A DNA stretch of 64,000 nucleotides from Phycisphaera sp. GTDB lineage: Bacteria > Planctomycetota > Phycisphaerae > Phycisphaerales > Zrk34. The notes below the pieces were generated by a model, which saw only the letters and a list, made by a program, of their open reading frames with translations, was not told the origin of the DNA and did not search any database. The translations under genes were made by a program, and so were the position numbers. The stretch covers positions 62,001 to 126,000 of the forward strand of contig WGMA01000005.1 in NCBI GenBank assembly GCA_016125285.1, written 5' to 3'. Shown here one piece after another: positions 1 to 13,772 of this stretch (position 1 is the first letter of the stretch; each line of letters opens with the position of its first letter).

Positions 1-577
1 AGTCCGGCTGCGTGAGGAAGGGGTTGCCTGCGCGCTCAGCGCCGATGGTCGAGTGCGAGCTGACGCCGAAGTCATGGCCGGGCCAGACCTCCACCGCGTC
101 GTCGAGCGTCATGAGTTTCTGGTGGAGGCTGTGGTACTGCTGGCGTGCGGAAGACTCGTGCGCGGTGCCGCCGATCTTGCCGACGAACAGCTCGTCGCCG
201 CTGATGAGCTTCGCGTCGTTCAGCAGCAGCGCGATCGAGTCGGGCGAGTGGCCGGGGCAGTGGATCGCGCGGACGGTGATCGAGCCGACGCGCACCACGT
301 CGCCGTCGTCGAGCGGCAGGTCGATATCGGGCACCGTCCTGTACGCCACGAACACCGCGCCGGTCGCGGCGCGCAGCGCGGGGACCGCGTCGACGTGGTC
401 GTAGTGCGAGTGCGTCGCGAAGATGTGCGTCAGCTCCAGGCCCATGTCGACGCAGCGGTCGAGGATCACCTCCGGGCTGTAGCCGACGTCCACCGCCGCC
501 GCGACACCCGCGTCGGCGTCACCGAAGAGATACGCGAAATTCCGATTGCCCCCAATGGCGATCTGTTCGAAAAGCAT
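1..577 (-). CDS. Metallo-beta-lactamase-fold hydrolase, glyoxalase II-like (partial, C-terminus off the left edge)
   Basis: 192 codons are present; the gene runs off the left edge with no stop. The reading frame starts MLFEQIAIGG and contains the zinc-binding HSHYDH motif (about residues 56-61), then CPGHSPDS and GDELFVGKIGG, which match the second histidine and bridging aspartate regions of glyoxalase II-like metallo-beta-lactamase-fold hydrolases. Likely role: zinc-dependent hydrolysis of a thioester or related substrate in the cytoplasm; the exact substrate cannot be told. The start at 577 is supported by a -10-like TACAAT on the minus strand at 584-589, only 6 bases upstream, with AAGGAC between, so the mRNA may be leaderless. 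Persulfide dioxygenase or a generic MBL hydrolase are alternatives. Confidence 0.85.
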   Translation of the reverse strand, partial: MLFEQIAIGGNRNFAYLFGDADAGVAAAVDVGYSPEVILDRCVDMGLELTHIFATHSHYDHVDAVPALRAATGAVFVAYRTVPDIDLPLDDGDVVRVGSITVRAIHCPGHSPDSIALLLNDAKLISGDELFVGKIGGTAHESSARQQYHSLHQKLMTLDDAVEVWPGHDFGVSSHSTIGAERAGNPFLTQPD

Positions 578-583
578 GTCCTT

Positions 584-589
584 ATTGTA
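584..589 (-). promoter_or_regulatory. -10-like TACAAT 6 bases before the hydrolase ATG
   Basis: Reading the minus strand, TACAAT is followed by AAGGAC and the ATG at 577. A sigma70-type start site about 7 bases after the hexamer would fall on the start codon itself. No clear -35 was identified. Confidence 0.5.
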
Positions 590-593
590 GGCA

Positions 594-708
594 TTTTGGG
601 TTTTTGAATTTTGATTTTTGATTGCCTCGGCGCGCAGAGAAAAGCGGCGCCCACCGTTGATGAGCGCCGCTTTAAAATCAAGAATCAGAATTCGAAATTC
701 AAAAATCC
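594..708. repeat. Heptad-periodic array, two facing arms around a hairpin
   Basis: The left arm (about 594-624) is T-rich with G at 599, 606, 613 and 620. The right arm (about 676-708) is A-rich with C at 679, 686, 693, 700 and 707. Both therefore have an exact 7-base rhythm. The arms are roughly reverse complements and enclose the terminator-like hairpin at 641-673. This array is one of several with the same rhythm but different heptad sequences. Confidence 0.7.
641..673 (-). terminator. Rho-independent terminator of htrA
   Basis: A perfect 10-bp stem (AAAGCGGCGC at 641-650, GCGCCGCTTT at 664-673) with a 13-base loop lies 40 bases after the htrA stop. On the minus strand the stem ends in a short T run (TTTTCT). 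Confidence 0.7.
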
Positions 709-712
709 AGCG

Positions 713-2335
713 CTACTCGTTCGGCAGCGTCAGCACGACGAACCGCTTCGCCCCGCCGTACGACACGCGGAACCGCACGCCCTTGGACAGGTCGAGCTTC
801 GCCGTCGCCTGCGCCAGGTCCGTCACGGTCGTCACGTCCTCGCCCTGCACCTGCGTGATGATCACGCCCGGCTGCAGGCCCGCCGTCGCCGCGACGCTGC
901 CCGGACGCACCGACTCGATCACGATGCCCGGCTCGGCGTCGATCTCCAGACGCGCCGCCAAGTCCTTCGTCACCGTCTGCATCCGCTCGATGCCCAGCTT
1001 GCGGAACGTCTCGAGCTTCTCGGCGTCGAGGTCCGCCGGCTTGTCCGGCACGATGCCCGGCCGACCGCCGCGCACCGCCAGCTCGTCCGGCTTCTCCTCC
1101 AGCTTCACCTTCAGCTCGATCCGCTTGCCGTCGCGGAACACGTTGACCGTGATCGTCTGCCCCGGCGGGATCGACGCGACGTTGCGACGCAGCGAGCTGG
1201 CGTCTTCCACGTCGTTGCCGTCGACCTTGTAGATGATGTCGCCGGCCTTCATGCCCGCCTTCGCCGCGGGGCTCGAGCCGTCGGTGATGTTCTCCACCAG
1301 CGCGCCGTGGCCGTCGTAGCCGAACGTCTTGGCCATGTCCGGCGTCAGGTCGCCGATGAACACGCCAAGGTAGCCGCGGCTGACCTTACCCTTGTCGATG
1401 ATCTGCGTGACGACCGCGCGGATCATGTCCGCCGGGATCGCCAGGCCGATGCCGTTGAACGCGCCCGTGCGCGTCGCGATCGCCGAGTTCATACCGACGA
1501 CCTCGCCGTAGATGTTCATCAGCGGGCCGCCCGAGTTGCCGGGGTTGATCGCCGCGTCCGTCTGGATGAAGTTCTCGTAACCGCCCACGCCGCGCAGGAT
1601 GCCGATCTCGCGGCCCTTGCCCGACACGATGCCCTGGCTCATCGAGAACTCGAACTGGAACGGCGAGCCGAACGCGAACACCAGCTCGCCCTGATCGACC
1701 GGCTTGGTCGCCAGCTGCGCCGGGTGCATCTGGATCGCGCCCTTGATCTTGATCACCGCGATGTCCGTCTGCGGGTCCGTCCCCACGACCTCCGCGTCAC
1801 GCGTGGTCTTGTCGAAGAACTTCACCGTGATCTCGTCCGCCTTCTCCACCACGTGGTTGTTCGTGACGATGTAATTCTCGCCGTTGTGCTGGTACACCCA
1901 GCCCGAACCCGAGCCGATCGTCTGAGGCACGTTGTACTCGTCGTACTGATCGTCCTGCTCGTCCGGCTGAGGCGCCTGACCACGCGGGGCGCCGGGGTTC
2001 TGACGCTCGAAGAAACGCCGGAACAGATCCTCAGGCGTCTGCGGCTCGCCCGGCGCGCCCGGGCCGGCGCTCGGCGTCACCATCCGACGAGCGATCTTCC
2101 GCTTGATCGAGATGTGAACCACGCTCGGCTCGGCGACCTTCGCCACCTGCTTGAACGCGTCGCTCATCCCGCTCAGCGGCGCCGCCTTGCTGTGCAGCTG
2201 AGCGCGGGCCTGTTCCAGCTTCGCGTCCTGCTCAGCCCACGCGAACTGACGCATCGCGTAAGGGCCGCCCACCAACACCACGGCGAGCGTGACGATCAGG
2301 ACCAGTGACGGCGCATAAGATCGAATCGATTTCAT
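713..2335 (-). CDS. htrA: HtrA/DegP-family periplasmic serine protease with two PDZ domains
   Basis: 540 aa. The N-terminal hydrophobic segment (about residues 8-25) is a signal or anchor. A trypsin-like domain follows with the catalytic triad in the contexts TNNHVV (His), TDIAVIKI (Asp) and GNSGGPL (Ser). Two PDZ domains follow, each with a carboxylate-binding-loop-like start (GYLGV, and a degenerate one near the C-terminus). Role: quality-control protease/chaperone for envelope proteins, from established DegP/DegQ biology. The start at 2335 (MKSIRSYAPS) is chosen over an ATG 13 codons upstream because GGAGG lies 6 bases before it. A terminator follows at 641-673. Only moderately longer than typical DegP. 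Confidence 0.93.
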   Translation of the reverse strand: MKSIRSYAPSLVLIVTLAVVLVGGPYAMRQFAWAEQDAKLEQARAQLHSKAAPLSGMSDAFKQVAKVAEPSVVHISIKRKIARRMVTPSAGPGAPGEPQTPEDLFRRFFERQNPGAPRGQAPQPDEQDDQYDEYNVPQTIGSGSGWVYQHNGENYIVTNNHVVEKADEITVKFFDKTTRDAEVVGTDPQTDIAVIKIKGAIQMHPAQLATKPVDQGELVFAFGSPFQFEFSMSQGIVSGKGREIGILRGVGGYENFIQTDAAINPGNSGGPLMNIYGEVVGMNSAIATRTGAFNGIGLAIPADMIRAVVTQIIDKGKVSRGYLGVFIGDLTPDMAKTFGYDGHGALVENITDGSSPAAKAGMKAGDIIYKVDGNDVEDASSLRRNVASIPPGQTITVNVFRDGKRIELKVKLEEKPDELAVRGGRPGIVPDKPADLDAEKLETFRKLGIERMQTVTKDLAARLEIDAEPGIVIESVRPGSVAATAGLQPGVIITQVQGEDVTTVTDLAQATAKLDLSKGVRFRVSYGGAKRFVVLTLPNE

Positions 2336-6155: not shown

Positions 6156-7271
6156 TCACTTCACCCCCGGCCCGTCCCACACCAACATTGCCACGCCCGC
6201 GACGGCGATCAGGGCGCCCAGCACGGCGCGGGGGCTGACGTGTTCCTTGTGGAGGAAGACGGCGAAGGGGATCAGCAGGATCGGGACGGTGGAGATGATC
6301 GTCGCGCTGACGCCGGTGGTGATGTGGTGCAGCGAGTACAGGAACAGGCCCACGCCCATGGCGGTGCCGATGCAGCCGGCGGCGAAGGTGAAGCCCATCG
6401 CGCGGCGGTCGGTCAGCGCGGCGGCGACGCGACGCCAGCGGCCGATCACAGTGAACAGCACGACGAAGCCGAGCATCGCGCCCAGGAAGCGCACCTGCGT
6501 CGCGGCGAAGGCGTCGAGGTCGCCCATGCCCTGCTTGCTCGTGACCGCGCCCACCGCCTGACCCACCGCGCCGCCCAGCGCCAGCAGCACGCCACGCAGC
6601 GTGATCTCCCGATGCCGACGTGCCCGCTGGGTGCCACTGGCGGCTTGTCCGCCAGTGCTCGCGAACGGTCTCATATCGCCATCTGCCGTGCGCACCGCGT
6701 TCGACTGTTGGATACTCGCACTGGTGGGCAAGCCACCAGTGGCACCCTCGCGCCGGCGGGCGAGCATGGCCCGCCGCGCCCGACCCGCATGGTCGCCCGG
6801 CGGGTCGCCGCCGCCTTCGATCACCGCCGTGTCACGCCGCTCCATGATCACCCACACCACGCCGCCGAGCGTGATCGCCATGCACAGCCACTGGAACCCG
6901 CTGTACGACTCGCCGAGCCAGAGGCGGCCGATGATCGCGGTCATCGGCACGTTGAGGGTCATCACGAGCATCGCGACGCGCGGGCCGATCTCCACGAACG
7001 CGCGGAAGAGGCACATGTCGCCGATGAACATGCCGATCAGCCCGGAGACGATCAGCCAGTTCCACGCGTGCGACGGGAAGTCGAGCGGCACGGGCTGCCC
7101 GCGAGCAATCAGGCCGACGACGACCAGCACGACGAAGGCGACGACGAGGCGCAGCAGGTTGACCGTCAGCGACCCGACGCGATGTCCCGCGGCCTCGATG
7201 CACTGCGACCCCACGGTCCAGCACATCGCCGCACCGAACGCCGCCGCCTCACCCGCGAAGGGAATCGCCAT
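6156..7271 (-). CDS. EamA/DMT-family transporter with an in-frame repeat insertion in the central loop
   Basis: 371 aa, against about 290-310 for typical ten-helix drug/metabolite transporters. Two EamA repeats are recognisable: residues about 1-145 and about 228-371, each with five hydrophobic segments. Likely an inner-membrane permease or exporter of unknown metabolite. The extra residues lie between the halves; residues about 175-215 are encoded by a REP-like palindrome pair at 6629-6747, giving glycine/serine-rich, polar sequence (GATGGLPTSA ... STGGQAASGT). The frame is kept through the insertion. A -10-like TAGAAT (minus strand, 7302-7307) and GAGGATC precede the start. Convergent with the kinase gene. 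Confidence 0.85.
   Translation of the reverse strand: MAIPFAGEAAAFGAAMCWTVGSQCIEAAGHRVGSLTVNLLRLVVAFVVLVVVGLIARGQPVPLDFPSHAWNWLIVSGLIGMFIGDMCLFRAFVEIGPRVAMLVMTLNVPMTAIIGRLWLGESYSGFQWLCMAITLGGVVWVIMERRDTAVIEGGGDPPGDHAGRARRAMLARRREGATGGLPTSASIQQSNAVRTADGDMRPFASTGGQAASGTQRARRHREITLRGVLLALGGAVGQAVGAVTSKQGMGDLDAFAATQVRFLGAMLGFVVLFTVIGRWRRVAAALTDRRAMGFTFAAGCIGTAMGVGLFLYSLHHITTGVSATIISTVPILLIPFAVFLHKEHVSPRAVLGALIAVAGVAMLVWDGPGVK
6629..6747. repeat. REP-like palindrome pair inside the EamA gene
   Basis: Unit 1 (6629-6658) has the tail GGGTGC and stem CACTGGCGG / CCGCCAGTG. Unit 2 (6718-6747) is its inverted mate with stem CACTGGTGG / CCACCAGTG and tail GCACCC. Compensating base differences keep both stems perfect. 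The tails match those of the intergenic pair at 13604-13772. Confidence 0.8.
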
Positions 7272-13603: not shown

Positions 13604-13772
13604 GGGTGGCACTGACAAGCGCAGCGCCGCGAAGCTTGTCAGTGGCGGAGGTCACGCCGATCGGGAACGACTTGAATCGCGGCTTTCTGGGACCACACAG
13701 CCCACACCATACGCCGCGCACGCGGCACAGCGCCACTGACAAGCTCGCTGTGCTCCCTTGTCAGTGCCACCC
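13604..13772. repeat. REP-like palindrome pair (GGGTGGCACTG class)
   Basis: Unit 1 (13604-13646): tail GGGTGG, stem CACTGACAAGC / GCTTGTCAGTG. Unit 2 (13732-13772): stem CACTGACAAG / CTTGTCAGTG, tail GCCACCC. The units are mutually inverted, 85 bases apart, and share the tail sequence with the pair inside the EamA gene. The rest of 13576-13925 holds the ankyrin promoter and the gltA leader, which has a small hairpin (TCTGCCG / CGGCAGA, about 13831-13851). Confidence 0.75.

Follow-up and report, generated by a model that had tools for sequence, protein, structure and literature searches.

Our results indicate that a REPIN, probably moved by a RAYT, has very probably been inserted into the gene of an EamA transporter, where it is read as a linker and tolerated. 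The window analyzed here comprises 64,000 nt (contig 55, positions 62001-126000) of a 6.09-Mb genome in 90 contigs (G000), and the element occupies positions 6629-6747 of it. It consists of two inverted REP units, both of which form a perfect hairpin of a 9-bp stem and a 5-nt loop (stems CACTGGCGG/CCGCCAGTG and CACTGGTGG/CCACCAGTG), and its two 30-nt arms show 90% mutual complementarity. The coordinates of these and the neighboring features are collected in the table.

Features of the element, its host gene and the second repeat pair in the window
Feature	Position	Strand	Remarks
EamA (DMT) transporter gene	6156..7271	-	371 aa; open through the REPIN
REP unit 1 (A type)	6629..6658	+	GGGTGCCACTGGCGG-CTTGT-CCGCCAGTGC; stem 6635-6643 / 6649-6657
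REPIN spacer	6659..6717	.	61 nt between the 27-nt cores; longest of 27 A-type pairs (range 15-61)
REP unit 2 (A type, inverted)	6718..6747	-	GGGTGCCACTGGTGG-CTTGC-CCACCAGTGC; stem 6719-6727 / 6733-6741
Remaining N-terminal-side part of the unusually long linker	6748..6833	-	residues 147-174; palindromes at 6753-6803
B-type REP unit of intergenic pair	13604..13644	+	tail GGGTGSCACTG as in A type; different stem CACTGACAAGC
Inverted partner B-type REP unit	13734..13772	-	pair with 13604..13644

A search with the REP unit pattern gave two matches in the window, compared to 0.00 per shuffle of the window, and 64 matches in the genome (up to three mismatches), compared to one for a reversed-pattern control. 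The folding z-score of the element relative to shuffled sequences was -6.2 as DNA and -7.6 as RNA. These counts and z-scores rule out a chance hairpin and uphold the view of the element as a REP-type mobile repeat, which had been proposed in a preliminary description of this DNA; the repeat core is widely present elsewhere in the genome. In a fuzzy scan of the fetched loci, the 27-nt core was recognized in 67 units; clean head-to-head pairs, 73-119 nt long, numbered 27. With 64 units and 27 clean +/- pairs, the repeat forms the over-represented inverted REP doublet that characterizes a REPIN.

The unit also has the general properties of a REP, i.e. a palindrome of 20-40 bp with a stem kept by compensating changes. 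Over the 67 units, the stem showed a T-A to G-C double change five times, a C-G to T-A change twice (REP unit 2 bears such a change) and a G-C to A-T change once. The eight double changes, found alongside four broken cells, were not reached in any of 2000 shuffles (maximum 4); the shuffles leave the relatedness of the copies in place, yet the changes span several pairs and several genomes. Thus, the compensating changes that had been read from the two stems of the element alone hold for the repeat as a whole. Compensated stem variants were also found in related genomes, where they occur as whole populations (GGCTG/CAGCC, GGCAG/CTGCC and GGTGG/CCACC). Of 120 related genomes, 12 had the A-type unit, with a patchy distribution across the order. 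The A-type core showed the same patchiness by copy number (G006, G017, G081, G105, G114, G120), with 31-155 copies in a few genera and few or none in most.

A second REP family, GTGGCACTGACAAGC...GCTTGTCAGTG (B type), includes the intergenic pair at 13604-13772, the tails of which had been said to match those of the element; the GGGTGSCACTG tail is indeed common to both. The guide preceding the 9-bp stem, determined from column counts, is GTGC in the A type, and that of the B type is GTGG. According to a home-made codon-usage gene caller, most copies of both families are close to gene ends, at distances between a few and a few tens of bases, and only about 5 of 40 A-type loci in the genome are intragenic.

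The genome has four Y1_Tnp matches. One of them, a 209-aa ORF on contig 31, narrowly passes the NCBIfam RAYT model NF047646 (81.2 bits, cut-off 80), has TnpArep (4er8; E 0.0047) as its sole PDB match, and carries motifs EHVH, WQ and YVHANP that resemble those tabulated for TnpA-REP class 2 (PMC6006769). A-type units stand in inverted orientation on both sides of this ORF (locus L030: units at 182-210(-) and 833-861(+), ORF at 212-841(-)), which is the arrangement of REPs bordering a RAYT gene described by Nunvar et al. (PMC2817692). The genome therefore contains the RAYT gene, bordered by its REPs, that belongs to a REPIN system, and this RAYT would have mobilized the REPIN at 6629-6747.

The product of the host gene matches PF00892 (EamA) in two stretches (E 6e-35), as befits a transporter with two EamA domains. 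The REPIN codes for about residues 175-215, within a linker (residues 147-225) between the two halves, in a phase that reads GATGGLPTSA...STGGQAASGT. We compared this linker to those of 27 aligned EamA relatives, even the closest of which share no more than about 30-50% identity per half. Between the equivalents of residues 146 and 226, 26 of the 27 have 9-34 residues and the transporter studied here has 79. The exception (L056, 81 residues) is due to an alignment offset, and its stretch is mostly hydrophobic and without REP-derived sequence. REP-derived sequence at the linker position was found in none of the 27, and the nearest relative (L150, 45% identity overall) has 20 residues there. No close relative of the host genome was found in the searched genome contigs. 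In this alignment, a shorter EamA form without the element is the rule, and an unrelated loop of equal length in the relatives is ruled out. The EamA matches and the alignment thus support the earlier placement of the element in the loop between the halves. Without the REPIN, the linker would still have about 39 residues, more than in nearly all relatives, so that some 20-25 residues are of other origin and something else must also have lengthened it. The palindromes in this remaining part were considered as a second repeat family and rejected, since no other good copy was found in the genome. An AlphaFold2 model of the transporter, made from a three-row alignment, had a mean pLDDT of 52.7, which is too low for conclusions on the linker or the topology.

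The preliminary description had further stated that the element keeps the frame and encodes about 40 polar residues. The open frame does run through the element, but at 119 nt its length is no multiple of three, and the frame can have been kept only with other changes. Likewise, the count of residues stands (about 41), but they are rich in Gly, Ala, Ser and Thr, i.e. small rather than strongly polar. Long open frames arise by chance in high-GC DNA, and the translation of EamA is predicted; accordingly, the frame might be accidental and the gene broken and decaying. This is very improbable in light of the codon-position G+C on the two sides of the element (0.67/0.50/0.93 and 0.70/0.50/0.94), the recognition of both EamA halves, and the recurrence of the pattern in four further genes, including mnmG.

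These genes came from a search for other in-gene copies, as suggested in the preliminary description, which yielded at least four further in-frame copies in the same genome. In MnmG (TIGR00136, 693 bits) the REP insert lies ahead of the C-terminal helical bundle. A glycogen debranching enzyme carries one that separates GDE_N (55-282) from GDE_C (364-721), and an FG-GAP/DUF7133 protein has one in the spacer that follows its FG-GAP part. In a Peripla_BP_2 (periplasmic binding) protein the insert is in the C-terminal tail, where the stop overlaps the next predicted gene. The insert is absent from aligned relatives of the first three proteins, and an insert-free relative of the debranching enzyme (58% identical) comes from G006, a genome that itself has 31 A-type units. 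Two related genomes, G081 and G017, add five copies, in genes named from our reading of domain hits and motifs, with the G017 copies fetched in part: a MurQ/GKRP-like SIS protein, a cytidylyltransferase, a dihydrouridine synthase, a DHH/DHHA1 protein and an MnmE-like GTPase. In the GTPase (L337, G017 contig 41), an in-frame REPIN lies between the G4 and G5 motifs (between NKCD and SALTGEG), and the dihydrouridine synthase of G017 (L344) has a full REPIN inside the gene. The lengths of the in-gene copies were 119, 87, 80, 76 and 79 nt in the genome of the window, 77 and 74 nt in G081, and 77, 78 and 78 nt in G017. Most of these are no multiple of three, which speaks against clean insertion and implies that small changes in the flanks must accompany or follow it.

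Three other features were noted. In G000, a dihydrouridine synthase gene (L090, 6277-7362) has a single A-type unit at its predicted start, MnmG (L071) has a second, unrelated repeat-like insert at residues 298-309, LPLPPGEGRGEG (CTCCCTCTCCCCCCGGGAGAGGGCCGGGGTGAGGG), and the MnmE-like GTPase of L337 also has PLPQPLPLKGEG and a PQQA tandem tract.

A single A-type unit is free of stops in every phase. In 8 of the 10 in-gene copies from the three genomes, the upstream unit is read as GGT GCC ACT GGC, giving GATGG[LS]PAS; the other two are VPLAACPPV-like, and none uses the Cys/Trp phase (GCHWRLVRQC). A bias of 8/8 was dropped, as the DHH/DHHA1 (L260) and GTPase (L337) copies are in another phase. 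The one-sided binomial probability of at least 8 of 10 in one phase is about 0.003 with equal phases and 0.010 with phases weighted by openness, or about 0.01-0.03 when corrected for the choice of phase. The phase of the downstream unit is free (TGGQAASGT, HWRASRQWHP or KPPVAPQ). That the bias reflects selection for small flexible residues is suggested, although not conclusively, by these counts. A broader reading, which we consider rather unlikely, is that the REP has become a reading-frame-safe sequence, without a stop in any phase, the surviving in-gene copies of which are mostly in the GATGGLPAS phase upstream, and that it thereby provides unrelated proteins across a bacterial order, among them core enzymes such as MnmG and the MnmE-like GTPase, with ready-made flexible linkers.

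A nearly fixed phase of unit 1 beside a free phase of unit 2 would also be seen if the RAYT or the target DNA imposed the phase, through a sequence preference falling in one codon position, and tolerance merely followed. Of the 67 units, 35 are preceded by C, as such a preference would have it; however, this preference is weak, and the base falls in codon position 2, which is not C-rich in the genes of this genome (G+C about 0.5). We consider an imposed phase unlikely. It is less likely still that the repeat is retained for a useful peptide, i.e. that REPIN-coded Gly/Ala/Ser-rich linkers between domains are in adaptive use. The prevailing phase, the avoidance of the Cys/Trp phase and the location of several inserts between domains would suit such a use, but unit 2 occurs in any phase, which is unexpected of a useful linker, in-gene loci make up just the small share given above, and purifying selection against harmful phases gives an identical bias.

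For a REPIN that was inserted, read and tolerated, the following course seems plausible. The two inverted REP hairpins would move as a single non-autonomous unit. Acting on single-stranded DNA, the RAYT (TnpA-REP) most likely recognizes the shared 5' tail together with the hairpin, which it would cut and join. Cutting and joining of single-stranded DNA is the mode of IS200/IS605-type HUH transposases. One copy would then have entered the sequence for the loop between the EamA halves, with some flanking bases gained or lost. As the unit is stop-free and has a phase of small residues, the insertion would have lengthened the linker of the protein by a flexible segment of about 41 residues and would have been tolerated. 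The segment is presumably neutral for the transporter, and selection may act on the phase.

The Rickettsia palindromic elements had been regarded in the preliminary description as the sole well-known parallel, but a 2013 catalogue contradicts this. Di Nocera (2013, PMC3733652) reported intragenic GTAG/CGTC REPs in many genera, with dimers or grouped repeats accounting for more than half and with a coding length of mostly 20-30 residues; Opitutus terrae (PVC) had the highest number of GTAG cases, some intragenic REPs were in tRNA-modification genes, and a location in flexible linkers or loops was proposed. Our finding is therefore a well-documented case of an already known kind. It shares with those repeats REPs and dimers read in frame in genes, and it differs in coding for 25-41 residues, in a non-GTAG guide, in an insert shown against aligned relatives, and in a phase count over three genomes. 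The GTAG superfamily is defined by an unpaired GTAG or GTGG directly 5' of the stem (canonical GT[AG]G), and the GTGC guide of the A type places the window element outside it as strictly defined. Compared to REPIN/RAYT systems (Bertels and Rainey 2011, PMC3116915; Nunvar 2010, PMC2817692), the repeat is alike in forming an inverted doublet (roughly 70-120 nt), in its many copies and hairpins and in a RAYT with inverted REP borders, and different in the A-type guide GTGC and in having some copies in genes, whereas the REPIN study (PMC3116915) concerned extragenic space. Rickettsia palindromic elements measure about 150 bp, and nearly half of them or more are located within genes (Ogata 2000, 2002, summarised in PMC10969869). 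They too are palindromic repeats in frame in unrelated genes, but by description they are set apart from the present repeat, with its 73-119 nt, its low proportion of in-gene loci and its cognate RAYT. The present repeat is a clear multi-gene case in which proteins that apparently work have gained sequence from a RAYT-type repeat and relatives lack this sequence. Its phase bias is testable, and the case makes the 2013 idea that intragenic REPs are harmless in flexible linkers countable across genomes.

REP units near contig ends had raised the suspicion that the contig-end repeats are a multicopy RAYT, which was rejected, as the shared ends belong to an IS3-type element. This element (loci L125-L149, e.g. 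L138, L139, L140, L144, L146 and L147) has a transposase ending in ...YIDNYYNPQRRHSALGYLSPVEYEQSAA and the terminus CCACC[AG]TTCGTGGGGAACCTCA; its right end is present 25 times in the genome, in most cases at a contig break. The REP-tail motif TG[GC]CAC[ACG]C occurs within 100 nt outside the IS3-type end in 16 of the 25 (chance 2.5%), and in 8 it starts exactly 24-25 nt from the end, across several REP stem families. By analogy, the element looks like REP-targeting IS such as IS1397, ISKpn1 and ISPsy8 (PMC1525189). The IS flanks (L131, L132, L137, L140, L142 and L149) also contain further REP-like stems with a GGGTGSC tail, e.g. TGTGGCAAAGCGAAGC and CACGGGC...GCCCGTG, which suggests that this genome harbors several REP populations side by side.
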